Translations under genes and position numbers: made by a program
Notes under the pieces: generated by a model
Database searches by the model: none
Seen by the model: the letters and a program-made list of their open reading frames with translations, nothing else
What the model was told of the DNA's origin: nothing
Source of the DNA: a virus
Strand: one strand, 5' to 3'
Length of the DNA stretch: 36,490 nucleotides
IMG/VR virus record: IMGVR_UViG_3300009128_000064
Coordinates: 1-36,490 of that record
In this document: positions 6,796 through 35,311 of the stretch, piece after piece
How the letters are laid out: every line of letters starts with the position of its first letter
Numbering within the stretch: the first letter of the stretch is position 1

Positions 6796-7559
6796 AATCA
6801 CCTCTTCGCTACCCTGGCGGCAAGACCCGAGCCCTAAAACACATCATCCCCCACTTCCCGGACGACATCCCAGAGATGGTAAGTCCGTTTTTGGGGGGAG
6901 GGTCCATCGAACTCCACTATGCCGCCCAGGGCACGAAGGTCCATGCCTACGATGTGTTCGAGCCTCTCATCAACTTTTGGCAGCAAGCACTCTTGGATGC
7001 TCCTGCGATGGCTCACATCCTTGAGGGGGCGATGCACCCAATCAGCAAGGCGCAGTTCAAGCGATTTCAGGAGAGGGTCGCCGACCTCACTCTTGACCCT
7101 CACCTACGAGCCTGCGCCTTTTACGCAATCAACCGCTCCTCGTTCAGCGGCGCAACTTTGAGCGGCGGAATGTCCAATAACCACCCACGCTACACGCAGT
7201 CCGCAATAGACCGCCTAGCCTCCTTCTCCGCCCCCAACCTCACCGCTAAGTGCCTTTCATTCGAAGACAGCCTCGCCCTCCACGACGACGACACCTTCAT
7301 CTACGCCGACCCACCCTACCTCTTGGAGAGCAACACCCTCTACGGCAACAAGGGCTCCACCCACAAGCACTTCAACCACGCCCTTTTTGCGGCAACAATA
7401 AAAAAGAAGAACAACTGGATAATATCATATAACCCACATCCAGAGATTTTAGACCTTTACAGAAATCACGTAATAGAGTATAATCTTGAATGGAAGTACG
7501 GAATGAGCAAAGACAAGACATCGAAAGAGATACTAATCATCAACAGAAAGGGAAACTGA
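6792..7559 (+). CDS. D12-class adenine-N6 DNA methyltransferase (Dam-like)
   Basis: 255 aa, probable TTG start overlapping the previous stop (TTGA). SPLRYPGGK (3-11) is the SAM-binding motif of D12 methylases, PFLGGGS follows, and ADPPY (172-176) is the catalytic motif; together they identify a Dam-like enzyme. A copy of the 3'-end repeat lies inside the coding region at 7389-7410, and the sequence after it becomes much more AT-rich than the first 600 bp, as if the C-terminal 55 codons had a different history. The stop overlaps the chaperonin ATG (TGATG). Confidence 0.9.
   Translation: MKSPLRYPGGKTRALKHIIPHFPDDIPEMVSPFLGGGSIELHYAAQGTKVHAYDVFEPLINFWQQALLDAPAMAHILEGAMHPISKAQFKRFQERVADLTLDPHLRACAFYAINRSSFSGATLSGGMSNNHPRYTQSAIDRLASFSAPNLTAKCLSFEDSLALHDDDTFIYADPPYLLESNTLYGNKGSTHKHFNHALFAATIKKKNNWIISYNPHPEILDLYRNHVIEYNLEWKYGMSKDKTSKEILIINRKGN
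7389..7410 (+). repeat. 3'-end repeat copy inside the Dam-like gene
   Basis: GCGGCAACAATAAAAAAGAA, read as A-A-T-I-K-K-K. It marks an abrupt fall in G+C within the gene. Confidence 0.6.
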
Positions 7560-9151
7560 TGAATAATAGCAAGGATAATATCCTATTTGACGACGAGATC
7601 AGAACGAAACTACTGGCGGGAGCGAACAAACTCGCCGACGCAGTAGCATCCACATTAGGACCACGAGGGCAGAACGTGATCCTCTATAAGCGTGGGGCAC
7701 CGCCAGTCATCACGAAGGACGGAGTGAGCGTCGCCCGAGTTGTGGAGTTGGAAGATAACTACGAACAGGCTGCGGTGGAAGTGATCCGCCAAGCCGCCCT
7801 CCAAACCAACAACCATGCGGGAGACGGCACCACAACGAGCACAGTTCTCGCCCGAGCCATCATGGAGGAAGCCCACCGCCAAGTGGTCGCTGGTGCTGCT
7901 TCCATCGAACTCAAACGAGGGATCGACGCAGCCGTCGAGAAGATCGTGGAGAACCTCGGAGAGATGGCGACCCCAGTCTCCTCGGAGGAACAAATCGCCT
8001 CCATCGCCACGGTTTCCGCCAACGGCGACAAGTCCATTGGCACCCTCATCGCCACAGCGGTCGATGCGGCAGGCAAGGACGGAGCGATCACTATCGAGGA
8101 GAGTCGCTCTTTGGAGACCTCTCTTGATGTGGTCGAGGGCTACCAGTTCCTCGGCGGCTATGTGTCCTCGCAGTTCGTCAACGACCAACGCCGAGCCGCT
8201 GTAACTATGACCGATGCTCTCGTTTTGGTCACGGACGCCACCCTCTCAACCATCGACGAAATGCTCCCCTTATTGGAGGTCGCAGCCCGAGACGGACGCC
8301 CGCTGGTTATCGTCGCCGAGGAGATCGAAGGGCAACTCCTCGCCGCCCTTGTCATGAACGTGATGCGGGGACAAATGAAAATCGTAGCAATCAAGCCGAA
8401 CCACTACGGAGAAGAGCGCAGAAACACCCTCAACGACATCGCTCTCACAACGGGAGCCACCTTCATCAGCAAGGACTCAGGTGTCCGCCTCAACAAGGTC
8501 ACTCTTGACCACCTCGGCACATGCAAGTCAGTAGAAGCGTTCAAGGGTCGTACTACTCTCGCAGGGGGCGGAGGTGACCTCAGCGCCATCGAGGAGCGAC
8601 TAACTATCCTTCGTGGCGAGGTCTCATCTACTGAGAGTCTACGAGACGCCGAGCGCATCCAGAATCGCATCACTCAGCTCGCATCAGGCATCGCCATCAT
8701 CCGAGTCGGCGGAGCAACAGAGATCGAAGTAGAGGAGAAGCGCCATCGAGTAGAAGACGCTCTCGAAGCGGTCCGTTCAGCACAAGAAGAGGGAGTAGTA
8801 CCGGGTGGAGGCGTCGCTCTCATCCGAGCAAGTGAGAATCTCGAACTCGAACTTGAGAATGCCGATCAACATCTCGGTGCCTCCATCGTCGCCAACGCAT
8901 CATTTGCTCCAATAAAGCAGATTTTAGCCAACGCAAACATCTCAGCGGACCTCGTCATCAGCAACCTCATCGCCCAAGAAGACAAGGGTGTCGGCTTCAA
9001 CGTCCGCTCAGGTCAATTTGAAGACCTTGTTAATGCGGGGGTTATTGATCCAGCCAAAGTCACAAAGCAAGCACTCATTAATGCTGCCTCTGCTGCTGGT
9101 ACGCTTCTCACGACAAATTGCGCTGTTTTGAGGGCATCAACAACAGAGTAG
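7559..9151 (+). CDS. groL: GroEL-type chaperonin (Cpn60)
   Basis: 530 aa from ATG 7559; the longer frame from 7490 overlaps the methyltransferase. STLGPRGQNV (31-40), ITKDGVSVAR with Asp54, GDGTTTS (88-94), HRVEDALEA, GVVPGGGVAL and the C-terminal VIDPAKVTKQALINAAS are all in place, covering the ATP site and catalytic Asp residues. It is slightly shorter than GroEL of E. coli (548 aa) and ends without a GGM tail. No GroES-like gene is in the window, so it may use a host co-chaperonin or none. Phage chaperonins are known from several large phages and probably fold virion proteins. A terminator follows directly. Confidence 0.95.
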   Translation: MNNSKDNILFDDEIRTKLLAGANKLADAVASTLGPRGQNVILYKRGAPPVITKDGVSVARVVELEDNYEQAAVEVIRQAALQTNNHAGDGTTTSTVLARAIMEEAHRQVVAGAASIELKRGIDAAVEKIVENLGEMATPVSSEEQIASIATVSANGDKSIGTLIATAVDAAGKDGAITIEESRSLETSLDVVEGYQFLGGYVSSQFVNDQRRAAVTMTDALVLVTDATLSTIDEMLPLLEVAARDGRPLVIVAEEIEGQLLAALVMNVMRGQMKIVAIKPNHYGEERRNTLNDIALTTGATFISKDSGVRLNKVTLDHLGTCKSVEAFKGRTTLAGGGGDLSAIEERLTILRGEVSSTESLRDAERIQNRITQLASGIAIIRVGGATEIEVEEKRHRVEDALEAVRSAQEEGVVPGGGVALIRASENLELELENADQHLGASIVANASFAPIKQILANANISADLVISNLIAQEDKGVGFNVRSGQFEDLVNAGVIDPAKVTKQALINAASAAGTLLTTNCAVLRASTTE

Positions 9152-14923: not shown

Positions 14924-15175
14924 ATGCTAGACACAATTATGCTCCACGAGGTTTTTTCTGCGGGGGGCAAGATCATCGGCATCTTTCGCAACCTGGACAA
15001 GGCACACATTTTCGCCGACATAGAGCGCAAGGCGAGGACAGAGCAAGTAAACGCCAGAATTGAGACGGGCGAACTCATTACCGATGGCGAGGTCCGAGGC
15101 GAACTTACCTATGCCACCGTGGGCATCCAAGTGAGGACTCGCACGATCACCTTCGACGACCATCTTATCCCATGA
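14924..15175 (+). CDS. Hypothetical protein
   Basis: 83 aa, not recognised; alternating helix and strand, no membrane segment. Starts 1 nt after the previous stop and overlaps the pilin-like gene by ATGA. Confidence 0.65.
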   Translation: MLDTIMLHEVFSAGGKIIGIFRNLDKAHIFADIERKARTEQVNARIETGELITDGEVRGELTYATVGIQVRTRTITFDDHLIP

Positions 15176-15573
15176 CTTCCCACCGAGGGTCAGCCCTGTT
15201 CCTTGTCTTGTTGGTAATCACACTCATCAGCGTCCCGATCTCGATGCTGTTCCTGTCCTCTTCAATCGAGACCATCATCGCAGGCAACACTCGCCGAGCA
15301 TCCTTAGCCCACCAGGCTTCCCTATCAGGAATCGCCCATTTCCAGTCACTCAACCTCCATGCCCACGACCTTATAGATATGGCTAACGGGCAAGAAGAAA
15401 TAGAAGTGATACCTTACACCCAGATGTTTAACTCAGAATATCGTGTGGTAGCCAAAAACATAGGTGAGGATGTATTTACTATTACGAGCGAAGGAAGAAT
15501 GCTTGACGGCGGGAGAGTGATAGCAATCGCCCGAACATCGGCCAGGTTTAAAACCACATACAGAGAGGAATAG
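15172..15573 (+). CDS. PilX-like type IV pseudopilin
   Basis: 133 aa. After SHRG (3-6) comes a long hydrophobic helix (SALFLVLLVITLISVPISML, 7-26), then ETIIAGNTRRASLAHQAS. That is the order of minor pilins of the PilX N-terminal family: a prepilin-peptidase glycine, hydrophobic helix without Glu5, then an AGN-R-x-x-AxQA segment. The C-terminal part is beta-rich (EYRVVAKN, VFTITSEGR), as in pilin heads. It would be processed by a host prepilin peptidase and enter the type IV pilus or type II secretion system. Phage pilin-like genes are unusual; possible roles are superinfection exclusion, pilus modification or adhesion. Located in an envelope gene block. Confidence 0.65.
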   Translation: MTSHRGSALFLVLLVITLISVPISMLFLSSSIETIIAGNTRRASLAHQASLSGIAHFQSLNLHAHDLIDMANGQEEIEVIPYTQMFNSEYRVVAKNIGEDVFTITSEGRMLDGGRVIAIARTSARFKTTYREE

Positions 15574-18550: not shown

Positions 18551-19279
18551 ATGACCTATGAGAAGACAATCGACCTCTACGGCGACGGCATAGGCAAAGT
18601 GACCTATATCCAACATTCAGGAAGCGATAAGATGGCTGTAAATGCCGCCAGAGTATCATTCGGACAAGACGACCTAAGCTCAGAACTCACAGAGAAAGAT
18701 GTGAAACTCATCAACTATTTGGTGAAGCACAACCACTCGTCACCGATGGAGCACTCAAACATCACATTTATGATTGAGGTCCCTTTATTTGTGAGGAGCC
18801 AACATCACCGCCATCGTGTCTGGAAATTCAACGAGATCTCACGGCGTTACACAGAGGAGAACATTCAGTTCTACGAGCCTAAAGCGTTCCGCACCCAACA
18901 CAAGGACAACAGACAGGCCAGCAACCCAGAGAACCTAATCAACCCCAACGCAACAGCGATCTGTCCTGGGTTCATCCAATCGAAGGTAGTAGCAGATGCT
19001 TCGTCGTTAGTCGCTCGCCACCACAAGATCAGCCTCGATCTATATCAAAGCCTAATGGAGCAAGGGGTTTGTCGTGAACAGGCCCGAGGGGTCCTACCTC
19101 AGAACCTAATGACTCGCTACTACGGCACTTGTGACATCAGCAACCTAATCAAGTTCATCACCCTCCGCACCCATGAGGGAGCCCAGTGGGAAATCCAGCA
19201 AGTAGCGGAAGCCATGCGAACCATCGCCACCGACCTGTTCCCAGCGACGATGAACGCCTATAACTCCGGCAATAAATAA
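18551..19279 (+). CDS. thyX: FAD-dependent thymidylate synthase ThyX
   Basis: 242 aa. The ThyX signature RHRVWKFNEISRRY (87-100) is complete in RHR...S..R, and the second conserved block (SSPMEHSNITF; RGVLPQNLMTRYYGT) is present. The enzyme makes dTMP from dUMP using FAD, methylene-tetrahydrofolate and NADPH; phages carry it to raise thymidine supply. Length is typical of the family. Ends in S-G-N-K-stop inside a 3'-end repeat. Confidence 0.95.
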   Translation: MTYEKTIDLYGDGIGKVTYIQHSGSDKMAVNAARVSFGQDDLSSELTEKDVKLINYLVKHNHSSPMEHSNITFMIEVPLFVRSQHHRHRVWKFNEISRRYTEENIQFYEPKAFRTQHKDNRQASNPENLINPNATAICPGFIQSKVVADASSLVARHHKISLDLYQSLMEQGVCREQARGVLPQNLMTRYYGTCDISNLIKFITLRTHEGAQWEIQQVAEAMRTIATDLFPATMNAYNSGNK

Positions 19280-20303: not shown

Positions 20304-20636
20304 AAACCAAAAACAGAAGAAGAAAGACAAATGTGAAGAAAGTTAGAGATAAATAAAGATGCACAGAGAGAGAAAGAACAATAGAGAGAAAAGAGAAGGA
20401 GAGGAAGATATTAGAGAGATAGGAGAAAGATATAGAGAGAAAGAAGAGAAAAAGAACCCAGAGAGAAAAGAAGAGAAGCAAGGGTTGGTAAGAAGGGTAA
20501 AGAAGAGAAAGAACCAAAAAAGAGTTCAGCATGAGAAGAAGAGAGAAAAGGAGAGAAGAGGAGAGAAAAGGGGAGAAGAAGAGAACGACAGCCATGAGAA
20601 GACACAGAAGAAGAATATTGAGGAACTAAGCTCACT

Positions 20637-20709
20637 ATATCCCAATATATCCACTATGCCCCAATATATCCCAATATATCCACTATGCCCCAATATATCC
20701 CACTATACA
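20637..20709 (+). repeat. 29-bp direct repeats, 2.5 copies
   Basis: Copies at 20637-20665 and 20666-20694 are identical; a partial third copy follows. Each unit contains ATATCCCAAT and ATATCCACTATGCCCC, i.e. a nested shorter repeat. Confidence 0.9.
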
Positions 20710-20863
20710 ACGGGTTGTGAGGGGATGCCCGCCAAAGGAACGAGGACCGCAGAGAAGGAATAAAGCTGCACAGAGGGGAACAGAGCCGCCATAAAAGGAG
20801 GTGGGAAAGTCGCCTGTGAAACCTAAGAAATTATGCCCAGGAATTTTAGAGCCCTAAGAAGCC

Positions 20864-32715: not shown

Positions 32716-32973
32716 ATGAATCATATGAACCTGACAAGAGACGCAATCCGCATCCTCATCAAGGAGGAGTTGGAAAAAGTAGTAACAACGACAACAAAAG
32801 AAGACACCACGATTGAAGAAGTAGTCGTGATCCAAGGCGACGACTATGACGCCATCCACCAACTATCAACAGAAATGGTAGAGAAGTTCGGCGCAGAGAA
32901 AGCCGAGCGTGTTCTCACTATGGCTGCTGGAATTGCTCGCCAAGGTGGGCGAGTCTCCACGGGTGGCTACTGA
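32716..32973 (+). CDS. Small protein with N-terminal basic helix motif
   Basis: 85 aa. LTRDAIRILIKEELEKV at the N-terminus matches the motif family at 4011, 32975 and 35141. The rest is an acidic, Thr/Val-rich linker and a helical C-terminus. GAAAGGGAG ribosome binding site. A virion role is inferred from the shared motif and from location next to the type III secretion-like genes. Confidence 0.7.
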   Translation: MNHMNLTRDAIRILIKEELEKVVTTTTKEDTTIEEVVVIQGDDYDAIHQLSTEMVEKFGAEKAERVLTMAAGIARQGGRVSTGGY

Positions 32974-32974
32974 T

Positions 32975-33217
32975 ATGAAGGTCACCAAGTCGCACCTCCG
33001 CAAAATCATCAGGGAAGAGATATCCGAACTCCCTCCCCCCAGTGGAGTCGCAGAAGAGTTCAAAGCGAGCCCTCGCCTCAACGACGCGCTCCATCTCGCT
33101 CTGGTTGAGTTTGCTGAGTCCACCCCTACGATGGAGCCTGCCCGTCGTGACCTAGTGGTCGAGACTGCCCTAGATTCCATCCGTCGGGGTTGGCACAACA
33201 GAATCAAGCCGTCCTGA
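32975..33217 (+). CDS. Small protein with N-terminal K-T-K-x-x-L-R motif
   Basis: 80 aa from ATG 32975; a longer frame from 32909 would overlap the previous gene. MKVTKSHLRKIIREEISEL is the clearest form of the shared motif, nearly identical to the start of the protein at 35141 (MKVTKTELRKIIREEI). The remainder is helical with a basic end. Confidence 0.75.
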   Translation: MKVTKSHLRKIIREEISELPPPSGVAEEFKASPRLNDALHLALVEFAESTPTMEPARRDLVVETALDSIRRGWHNRIKPS

Positions 33218-33397: not shown

Positions 33398-34216
33398 ATG
33401 GTAATCAACTCACTAGGCACACGCTTCAACAGAGCCCTTGACCGAGCAGGTCTCCCTGATGTTGTCGGAGACATCGCAGGCGCTCAACTAGACCTCGCAA
33501 CCTTCAACATCTCAGGTGCGGCCCAGAACTATCGTGATGCGGTTAGTGGTTTAGATACTTCTTTTATGTCGCCGAAGAAAGCGATAGAGAGAAGTCGCCA
33601 GGTGAGTGGTGATACCTATGCGAAGGGCACGGGCGGAACCTTGGCTTCGGCGTTCCAAAAGATGGACGGGGAGTTGATGGAACTCATGGGCGCTGTCGGC
33701 AAGAAGGTCGGCTCCCTTATGAGCCAGCAGAACAGCGGACAAGAGAATGTCGGCGACCTTGTTGGCCCCAATGCCCCCATTGAGGACAGAATCGCAGCGT
33801 TCCTTTTCAAGCAGATGAAAGAGAGCGACAAAGCCCTCGAAGCCCAGATGAAGAAATACGAAGCCCTCGGCAAGAACACCACCAAGAAGAAGTCAGGTGG
33901 TTTCTTCGGTTCAATCAAATCAGCATTCAAGAGCGTAGCGAGCACAGCCTTCTCTATCGGCGGTGGCGCTCTCGGTGGAATGGTCGGCGGTCCAATCGGC
34001 TCCAAACTCGGCTCCTCCTTTGGTGGCGGTCTCTTCGGTGGAATGTTCGGCAACAAAAAGAAATCATCAACAGGAAACAACGAACATAGCAAAAGCGTTA
34101 TGAACTTCAAAATACAGATTTTGATGAATAAAAGAAAAGAACTCCACGATCTCGTGAGCAATATGTTAAAGACCATGCACTCGATGAGTATGGTCGCAAT
34201 CAACAACATCCGATAG
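33398..34216 (+). CDS. Glycine-zipper protein with type III secretion needle-like C-terminus
   Basis: 272 aa. Residues 1-110 are helical; 128-157 (IEDRIAAFLFKQMKESDKAL) form a charged amphipathic helix; 186-218 are a Gly-rich, hydrophobic stretch (GGGALGGMVGGPIGSKLGSS); 233-272 (FKIQILMNKRKELHDLVSNM then LKTMHSM and INNIR) look like the terminal helix of type III secretion needle subunits, which end in similar S-N-x-x-K-x-x-x-D-x-x-x-I-x-N-x-R patterns. The next protein ends with the same INNIR. GGAGG ribosome binding site. A 3'-end repeat lies inside at 34046, just before the needle-like part, with more AT-rich DNA after it. Could be a translocator, needle or ejected virion protein. Confidence 0.6.
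   Translation: MVINSLGTRFNRALDRAGLPDVVGDIAGAQLDLATFNISGAAQNYRDAVSGLDTSFMSPKKAIERSRQVSGDTYAKGTGGTLASAFQKMDGELMELMGAVGKKVGSLMSQQNSGQENVGDLVGPNAPIEDRIAAFLFKQMKESDKALEAQMKKYEALGKNTTKKKSGGFFGSIKSAFKSVASTAFSIGGGALGGMVGGPIGSKLGSSFGGGLFGGMFGNKKKSSTGNNEHSKSVMNFKIQILMNKRKELHDLVSNMLKTMHSMSMVAINNIR
34046..34068 (+). repeat. 3'-end repeat copy inside a gene
   Basis: TTCGGCAACAAAAAGAAATC, read F-G-N-K-K-K-S, between the Gly-rich domain and the needle-like domain. Confidence 0.6.
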
Positions 34217-34227
34217 GAGAGAAACAA

Positions 34228-34680
34228 ATGAGCATCAGCAGACTAAACAGCGGTGGAAGCATCCGACTAAACAACCAACCACAACACACACGACAGACCC
34301 CAAACAACAGCTTCGGGGCGCAGATACAACGAGGCGTAGCCAACGGAGCAGGGGCGATGTCTCACGCTGCAAATGTCGCTGCGCCGTTTGTGCCTGGTGG
34401 TACGGTGGTGGCTGCGACCCTCAACGGGTTCGCAGGACAATCAACGGGTCAAAGCCAGCAACAGATGCCCTCTGGAACTCCTGATGCTCTCACGGGAGAG
34501 AATAAGCCATCAGTACTGGAGCAAACCAAAGCGCTCCAAGAACAGGGTTACTCGCAGAATATGCAGTATCTTCAACTCCAAACCAAAATGCAAAATGAAT
34601 CACGCCAATTCACGACGATTAGTAACATAATGAAGGTGCGGTACGAGACGCAAAAGTCCTCAATCAATAACATAAGATAA
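34228..34680 (+). CDS. Type III secretion needle-like protein
   Basis: 150 aa. The N-terminal 95 residues are Asn/Gln/Gly-rich and probably disordered, with a small Ala/Val-rich patch (48-66). Residues about 100-150 are one long helix: YLQLQTKMQNESRQFTTISN, IMKVRYETQKSS, INNIR. The pattern L-Q-x-K-M/L...S-N-x-x-K-x-x-x-x-x-x-x-x-I-x-N-x-R is that of the C-terminal polymerising helix of SctF/PrgI-type needle subunits. Needle subunits are usually about 80 aa, so the long N-terminal extension is odd. GGAGAG ribosome binding site, 11 nt after the preceding gene. Confidence 0.55.
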   Translation: MSISRLNSGGSIRLNNQPQHTRQTPNNSFGAQIQRGVANGAGAMSHAANVAAPFVPGGTVVAATLNGFAGQSTGQSQQQMPSGTPDALTGENKPSVLEQTKALQEQGYSQNMQYLQLQTKMQNESRQFTTISNIMKVRYETQKSSINNIR

Positions 34681-34707
34681 AGAATATAACTTGGAGCACT
34701 ATCTCTA

Positions 34708-35073
34708 ATGGACATCTCTCCCGCCGACCTCTTACAACAGATCGTTGCCCAGTCTGGGGGTGTTTCCCAAATCGGGCAACAGCAGGAAATAGGGAAACAG
34801 TCGTTCAAGGAAATACTCGCAGAAAAAGCGAGCAAAACCAACGAGATACAACAGACAGACAAAATAACTACGCTATTACAAGGGGTTATGAACGGGCAAG
34901 GGAAACTCAACAAGATCATCAAACTCGCAACCTCCGGCAAAGCGTTCAGCCCTACTGAACTCATAGCGATCCAAGCCGGCGTCTATAAATTCAGCCAGGA
35001 GCTTGAACTAACTTCCAAGGTGGTTGAGAAAGCCACAGACGGCATAAAGCAGACCCTTCAAACACAAGTATAG
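34708..35073 (+). CDS. Type III secretion inner rod-like protein (YscI/EscI/HrpB family)
   Basis: 121 aa. Residues 79-120 (AFSPTELIAIQAGVYKFSQE, LELTSKVVEKATDGIKQTLQ, TQ) follow the conserved C-terminal pattern of inner rod proteins: F/L-S-P-x-E-L-L-x-L-Q...Y-x-x-S-x-E-L-x-L-x-S-K-V-V-x-K-A-x-x-x-V/I-x-x-L-x-x-x-Q. In injectisomes this helix packs at the base of the needle. N-terminal residues are Gln-rich and flexible, as in the family. No other injectisome gene (ATPase, secretin, export gate) lies in the window. Start ATG 34708 has GGAG 17 nt upstream, which is long. Confidence 0.68.
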   Translation: MDISPADLLQQIVAQSGGVSQIGQQQEIGKQSFKEILAEKASKTNEIQQTDKITTLLQGVMNGQGKLNKIIKLATSGKAFSPTELIAIQAGVYKFSQELELTSKVVEKATDGIKQTLQTQV

Positions 35074-35140: not shown

Positions 35141-35311
35141 ATGAAAGTCACCAAAACAGAACTACGCAAGATTATTAGAGAAGAGATAATGAAAGAAGCC
35201 ATTAGAGAAGAGATGGAGGCAGTAGCCACCAAGGTCGCTTCGGAAGAAACAGCCACCACAGAGACAGATCAAGTTGTGGCCGTTGATGAGGTTGTCCCCG
35301 CTAAATCCTAA
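35141..35311 (+). CDS. Small protein with N-terminal K-T-K-x-x-L-R motif (56 aa)
   Basis: MKVTKTELRKIIREEIMKEA, immediately followed by a second I-R-E-E unit, then an acidic Thr/Val tail. Almost the same N-terminus as the protein at 32975, on the other side of the type III secretion-like genes. Followed by a terminator. Confidence 0.7.
   Translation: MKVTKTELRKIIREEIMKEAIREEMEAVATKVASEETATTETDQVVAVDEVVPAKS

Follow-up and report, generated by a model that had tools for sequence, protein, structure and literature searches.

Phages carry toxins, effectors of type III secretion systems (T3SS), metabolic genes and other morons or auxiliary genes. In the literature that we searched, there was no report of phages with structural axial parts of an injectisome. 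The T3SS* of Myxococcus xanthus is recruited to the places where the cell touches prey, and prey lysis requires it (PMC12075869). Abby and Rocha (2012) reported that Myxo systems lost SctF, and the Myxococcus T3SS* has been described as needleless (PMC3459982, PMC10433427, PMC12075869). The Myxococcus loci have already been reported to include SctI (PMC10433427, PMC3459982). Here we analyzed a window of 36,490 nucleotides, the whole stretch from position 1 to 36,490 of the IMG/VR virus record IMGVR_UViG_3300009128_000064, and compared three of its genes with those of Myxococcota T3SS loci.

A three-gene cassette in large tailed phages

A preliminary description, made from the letters of the window, had pointed to three consecutive genes resembling axial injectisome proteins. 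The three ORFs are present where it placed them, and are listed here with the small genes around them.

32725-32973 and 32975-33217, plus strand: two small phage genes upstream of A, with an N-terminal motif in their translations; context, not T3SS
33398-34216, plus strand: gene A, 272 aa; needle-domain or translocator-like T3SS substrate, with a needle-like C-terminal helix ending in AINNIR
34228-34680, plus strand: gene B, 150 aa; its host counterpart is at the sctF position, and its needle-like C-terminal helix ends in SINNIR
34708-35073, plus strand: gene C, 121 aa; inner-rod protein, SctI of the Myxococcota type, on the basis of PF17001, NF038054 and the sctJ neighbourhood in hosts
35141-35311, plus strand: small phage gene downstream of C, whose N-terminus also has the motif (MKVTKTELRKIIREE); context, not T3SS

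A and B are separated by 11 bases and B and C by 27, and a plausible Shine-Dalgarno-like site lies ahead of each gene. The translations show the needle-like C-termini of A and B, both closing with INNIR, and the C-terminal inner-rod pattern of C, as had been described; the C proteins of all four phages align to PF17001 with their C-termini in register. The comparison with needle subunits applies to B and A in part: their C-terminal domain is needle-like, but both proteins are much larger than a needle subunit. Residues ~185-220 of A form a Gly-rich hydrophobic stretch.

The small flanking proteins do have a common N-terminal motif, which reads K/N-x-T-K/R-x-x-L/I-R-x-x-I-R/K-E-E in the two upstream genes. 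An N-terminal motif like MKVTKTELRKIIREE is common to otherwise unrelated-looking phage proteins (window 4011, 32725, 32975 and 35141; L134:110) and is possibly a targeting or processing signal. The proposed late promoters flanking the trio were not borne out: three sigma-70-like sites were found where 2.3 ± 1.3 are expected, which is not above chance. Elsewhere in the window, the ORF at 20359-20763 consists almost solely of charged residues (R, K and E repeats) and may be non-coding purine-rich DNA.

A, B and C form a tight cassette that recurs, with its order kept, in another three distinct phages (five IMG/VR contigs). With the window included, the trio occurs in identical order in four distinct phages. 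One of these contigs, of 235,681 bases, is a large, complete-looking contractile-tailed phage with matches to terminase (3e-47), portal (2.5e-72), major head protein (9e-71), two tail sheaths (3e-62 and 3.5e-57) and baseplate wedge (4e-21). This gene set rejects the possibility that the relative is a chromosomal fragment miscalled as a virus. Genes that the window shares with this relative include those for GroEL, an IMP-dehydrogenase-like protein and a head maturation protease, the last at 73% identity. The window itself encodes head maturation proteases, of which this is one, and represents part of the genome of a large tailed phage. Like auxiliary genes derived from hosts, the trio is carried by a bona fide phage and has relatives among host genes. 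In phage L005, an HNH-type endonuclease-like gene (L005:6496-7458) lies between A and B, and both are still open.

Among GenBank phages, tblastn with C found no homolog, and the first 20 kb of the window had no near match at the DNA level. PHROGs had no family for C and marginal ones only for A. Other products of the window include an IMP-dehydrogenase-like protein (873-1895), GroEL (7490-9151) and ThyX (18551-19279); the 235-kb relative encodes an FtsH-like AAA protein and has a weak match to PhuZ tubulin (L135:10290-12125 and L134:8189-9211). A prepilin-like protein is kept in these phages (window 15172-15573 and L002:10830-11258; PilX_N, E 0.043 and 1.3e-4). It is noteworthy because the T3SS* works with a Tad pilus that has minor pilins as its tips.

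The preliminary description had drawn two inferences, an ejection conduit and the modification of a host injectisome. If A-C were structural proteins, they would form an ejection channel or be injected with the DNA. Conservation of the cassette in four phages agrees with this, and needle-type proteins can form tubes. However, the 235-kb phage already has two tail sheaths and baseplate, portal and capsid genes. Its trio, at ~219-221 kb, is ~85-105 kb away from the terminase-to-sheath genes at ~114-135 kb. The host homologs of A, B and C, moreover, are all inside T3SS loci. The contractile tail, the distance from structural genes and the host T3SS homologs make a virion conduit improbable, and of the two inferences we favour the modification of a host injectisome.

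Relatives of A, B and C in Myxococcota T3SS loci

In a single-sequence search, the C protein of the window matched PF17001 (YscI/HrpB/PscI) over nearly the whole model with an E of 0.0031 and the NCBIfam SctI model NF038054 with an E of 0.016; its scores are below both curated cut-offs (18.3 against 32.4 bits and 15.3 against 39 bits, respectively). The four phage C proteins matched PF17001 with E values of 0.003-0.006, and the alignment ends at the last model position. Since the single-sequence profile scores were all below the curated cut-offs, we built the case on relatives and gene order.

With a profile of the phage C proteins, homologs were found in 153 of 193 Myxococcota genomes, many of which have two or three. 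The matches to host loci reach an E of 6.6e-41, with 49-66% identity in the alignment, and C is homologous over its full length to SctI encoded in Myxococcota T3SS loci. Close relatives, 69-74% identical, appeared in only three MAGs (labelled Myxococcota, Myxococcales or Deltaproteobacteria) in a scan of a species-genome collection. In genome G077 (9.8 Mb), two T3SS loci were examined (L065 and L066), and both C homologs are directly upstream of sctJ there (TIGR02544, E 1e-38 and 1e-42). SctV, SctU, SctR and SctN of the second locus scored over their curated NCBIfam cut-offs. The sctJ-adjoining homologs of Myxococcota also score under the PF17001 and NF038054 cut-offs, and none of 117 Myxococcota genomes passed that of PF17001, sctJ-adjacent homologs included. 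The curated SctI models therefore miss the Myxococcota branch. An unbiased PF17001 scan of the same number of Myxococcota genomes gave matches in 66 (best E 1.1e-5), which were the C loci wherever both lists could be compared, and in none of 14 control genomes. C retains almost all conserved residues of the host rod, and the SctI reported earlier from Myxococcus loci fits the identification of C as SctI. Three other matches of C were discarded: FliE, a single weak match (E 0.08, L002) rejected because the host homologs are beside sctJ, and NusB and TFIIB, both under cut-off.

B homologs were found in 37 of 38 Myxococcota genomes, and host B is encoded next to sctI. One G077 locus has the order B-C-sctJ. 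In the other, B follows a small gene X, and a TPR gene, the 131-aa gene Y and a further stretch come between B and C, with sctJ after C; by comparison with L067 and L026, the stretch between Y and C probably holds a gene for a FliA-type sigma factor. The known order yscE-F-G-H-I-J is similar to this X-B-TPR-Y-C-sctJ order. In L066, and in L067 and L026, the host B gene is at the sctF position, between a small gene and a TPR chaperone gene and ahead of sctI-sctJ. The TPR protein of L067 matched LcrH/SycD (6.5e-9) and CdsG (7.4e-8). Two needle models matched host B, PF09392 over positions 16-71 of 71 with an E of 0.0024 and TIGR02105 with an E of 0.002, both at scores below cut-off (18.5 against 29.4 and 18.5 against 41.7 bits), and phage B matched neither model. 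In length B is 150 aa in the phage and ~170-190 aa in most hosts, not the ~80 aa of a needle protein. A match of B to Arg_decarb_HB was under cut-off and was dropped.

The predicted structure of C has two helices, 48-75 and 82-120, with a pLDDT of 75-87 over much of the hairpin and a mean of 64. That of B is a single long C-terminal helix, 93-149, with a mean pLDDT of 57.5. Both models, of modest confidence, are compatible with rod and filament proteins and prove nothing. Foldseek against the PDB found no fold match for either of them, which was to be expected of long helices predicted with modest confidence. A sequence search of the PDB with the A, B and C profiles gave nothing relevant; a marginal match of the A profile to a 43-residue T3SS chain (7y6c_F, E 0.36) was not used.

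A homologs occur in 35 of 38 Myxococcota genomes at an E of 0.01 or better. They are often several to a genome and very variable in length, and many have only the C-terminus in common. The closest, in MAG ANT-56 (G003), is downstream of sctU (TIGR01404, E 1.3e-103, just below cut-off), a gene of 82 aa and a TPR gene with an LcrH match (6.6e-11). As a putative translocator, A would insert in the target membrane and have an LcrH-type chaperone; the LcrH-like gene upstream of host A is evidence of the genomic-neighbour kind. The A protein of the window matched the SseD translocator with an E of 0.0067, at 16.5 bits against a cut-off of 130, and A relatives matched PF09392 below threshold. In one comparison by hhalign, the C-terminal profiles of A and B aligned with a probability of 97.5 and an E of 5.8e-12. 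The C19orf12 and pdsO matches of A were under cut-off and were dropped.

A PF09392 scan listed 47 matches. Twelve are A/B loci that had been found independently and 15 more are within 5 kb of a C locus; more needle-domain genes are among the remaining 20. In G084, two copies beside a TPR gene pass the cut-off. Because one of 14 control genomes also gave a sub-threshold match, single weak PF09392 matches mean little. Whole-genome scans with PF17001 and PF09392 fall on the C and A/B T3SS loci. A separate group of large multi-copy Myxococcota proteins has variable N-terminal parts and a needle-like C-terminus (L114:6576-9038, L115:1-1080, L118:3408-5636, L119:2742-4403 and L122:8682-10298); these are possibly T3SS substrates with an attachment domain.

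Small needle-like proteins occur in tandem at the following positions.

L167:14819-15918 (G077) and L117:4997-10205 (G175): inside a T3SS locus of the kind called needleless
L169:15624-17169 (G074) and L171:14883-16121 (G083): related proteins of 74-123 aa and 77 aa

The long T3SS locus of G077 has three tandem 72-aa proteins, identical to each other, in the interval from sctU to sctV. LcrH-like genes are nearby, one of which (L167:16744-17220) scored over cut-off at 6e-32. The 72-aa class is seven-fold in G175, and tandem relatives of 74-123 aa and 77 aa are found in G074 and G083. The C-termini of the small proteins matched the A and B profiles with E values of ~1e-5 to 1e-9 among 1318 ORFs, and PF09392 matched them weakly, at 4.9e-5 in the best case (G098) and at 0.14 in that of the G077 copy. 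From their sequences and positions, B, beside sctI, and the tandem 72-77-aa proteins are candidates for the missing T3SS* filament.

Short helical proteins might resemble SctI and SctF models by chance, and the phage-protein scores below all curated cut-offs and the empty Foldseek search would agree with that. Strong homology to host genes inside T3SS loci, together with genome-wide significant PF17001 matches at those loci, makes such a coincidence scarcely credible. Host homologs, gene order and conservation of the phage cassette support the presence of axial injectisome-type proteins in the phage. We are confident in identifying C as an SctI of the Myxococcota type, and A and B as related T3SS proteins that are axial or distal.

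Selection, origin and missing machinery

Synonymous sites are saturated or nearly so from phage to phage. In contrast, the last 60 residues of C are identical at 50-57 of 60 positions (83-95%), with a dN of 0.03-0.11. A and B are conserved between phages too, and the B protein of the window has 32 of 60 C-terminal identities with the other phage B proteins. The trio is under purifying selection, which is strong on C.

Trees of C and of B both pair the window copy with that of host ANT-56 (support 86/80 and 82/90), and the other phage copies are nearby. One or two acquisitions would both fit the two trees, which do not fix the direction of transfer. From the relationships of these genes, the phage apparently infects Myxococcota. 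In ANT-56, A is on one contig and B and C are on another. For this reason the phage seems to have gathered exported parts from separate loci, without their chaperones.

Phages do pick up host DNA, and the phage copies group with host sequences in the trees; the trio could accordingly be a recent passenger with no function for the phage. The constant make-up and order of the trio across four divergent phages and the origin of A and B-C from separate host loci speak against it. So do synonymous sites near saturation in genes whose protein is conserved, a dN/dS pattern that refutes the simple form of this explanation. We consider it highly improbable.

No injectisome ATPase, export gate or ring gene had been noticed in the window, and tblastn and PF00771 searches agreed. 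Using host SctV, U, T, R, Q, N, L, J, O, chaperones and sigma factor as tblastn queries, we found none of them in the window, G004, G005 or G007, with the exception of a poor ATPase match (E 0.002). PF00771 was absent from six phage records. The search for other Sct proteins, which the preliminary description had suggested for the rest of the phage genome, was run on related phage records too and found no base genes. A complete phage-encoded T3SS with export gate, ATPase and ring genes was not found in these records, which may be fragments, so that a chaperone gene or another T3SS gene may have been missed. Since the searched phage DNA yielded neither base, export-gate or ATPase genes nor a chaperone gene, the phage probably depends on the host machine.

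Proposed function and comparison with known systems

The identity of the phage proteins is well supported, and the function proposed here is what we infer from it. Our reading, to which we give slightly better than even odds, is that the phage supplies exported axial parts of the putatively predation-linked T3SS* of its host to rebuild or re-tool the machine in infection. The phage would carry an inner rod SctI (C), a needle-position protein (B) and a needle-domain or translocator-like substrate (A), and nothing of the machine that exports them. A-C would be made during infection and exported by the host T3SS* base, using host chaperones. They would then be assembled into the rod and filament of the host T3SS*, where C may form the rod, and the infected cell would bear a phage-specified version. 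The likely pay-off would be that contact-dependent prey lysis by the infected predator is kept up or redirected. Expression, export and benefit are parts of the proposal; functional assembly on the host machine has, in our judgment, an even chance.

The main rival is sabotage, in which the phage copies would become part of the host T3SS*, cap or jam it and so block secretion. This might, for instance, save energy, prevent contact with other cells or exclude phages that use the apparatus. Carrying exported parts without chaperones would suit this, and so would the divergence of the window B from the other phage B proteins, as might be seen in an imperfect mimic. However, three axial parts kept together, each under purifying selection, exceed the needs of a plug, and C keeps nearly every conserved residue of the host rod. 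We regard sabotage as unlikely. Because rod, needle-position and distal needle-domain proteins are carried together, the set argues for building or re-tooling a filament over plugging.

Taken further, the re-tooling reading would make the trio a conversion kit, carried by large phages of predatory Myxococcota, that re-tools the contact-dependent T3SS* in infection, and the same families would supply the T3SS* filament. We put this forward tentatively, at somewhat less than an even chance. It suggests that phages may modify the weapon of a predator, and hence predator-prey interactions. The comparison also bears on the open needle question of the Myxococcus T3SS*, and B and the 72-77-aa families are directly testable in M. 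xanthus.

Compared with SctI (YscI/EscI/HrpB/PscI; PF17001 and NF038054; Myxo-type, MXAN_2434-2464 locus), C has the same C-terminal pattern and a predicted two-helix hairpin, and its host genes are directly upstream of sctJ. It differs in being encoded by a phage whose searched DNA lacks a T3SS base; it misses the curated cut-offs like the other Myxococcota members tested. B resembles SctF (PF09392 and TIGR02105) in the match of the host C-terminal domain and in a host order like sctE-F-G-H-I-J, whereas its 150-190 aa, with an N-terminal extension and a hydrophobic stretch, differ from the ~80 aa of a needle subunit. A is like the SseD/EspB/YopD translocators in its Gly-rich hydrophobic stretch, C-terminal helix, weak SseD match and host neighbours of the LcrH chaperone kind. 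In contrast to them, its match is far under cut-off, its C-terminus is shared with needle-like proteins, and its family is multi-copy and variable in length. The "needleless" T3SS* of Myxococcus xanthus belongs to the same system family, with SctI, LcrH-like chaperones and no secretin reported; the literature reports no needle or translocon, whereas needle-like candidates are found in such loci here (PMC12075869, PMC10433427, PMC3459982). Like phage-carried T3SS effectors and other morons, A-C would be phage genes acting through a host machine, but here they are structural, exported parts of the syringe.
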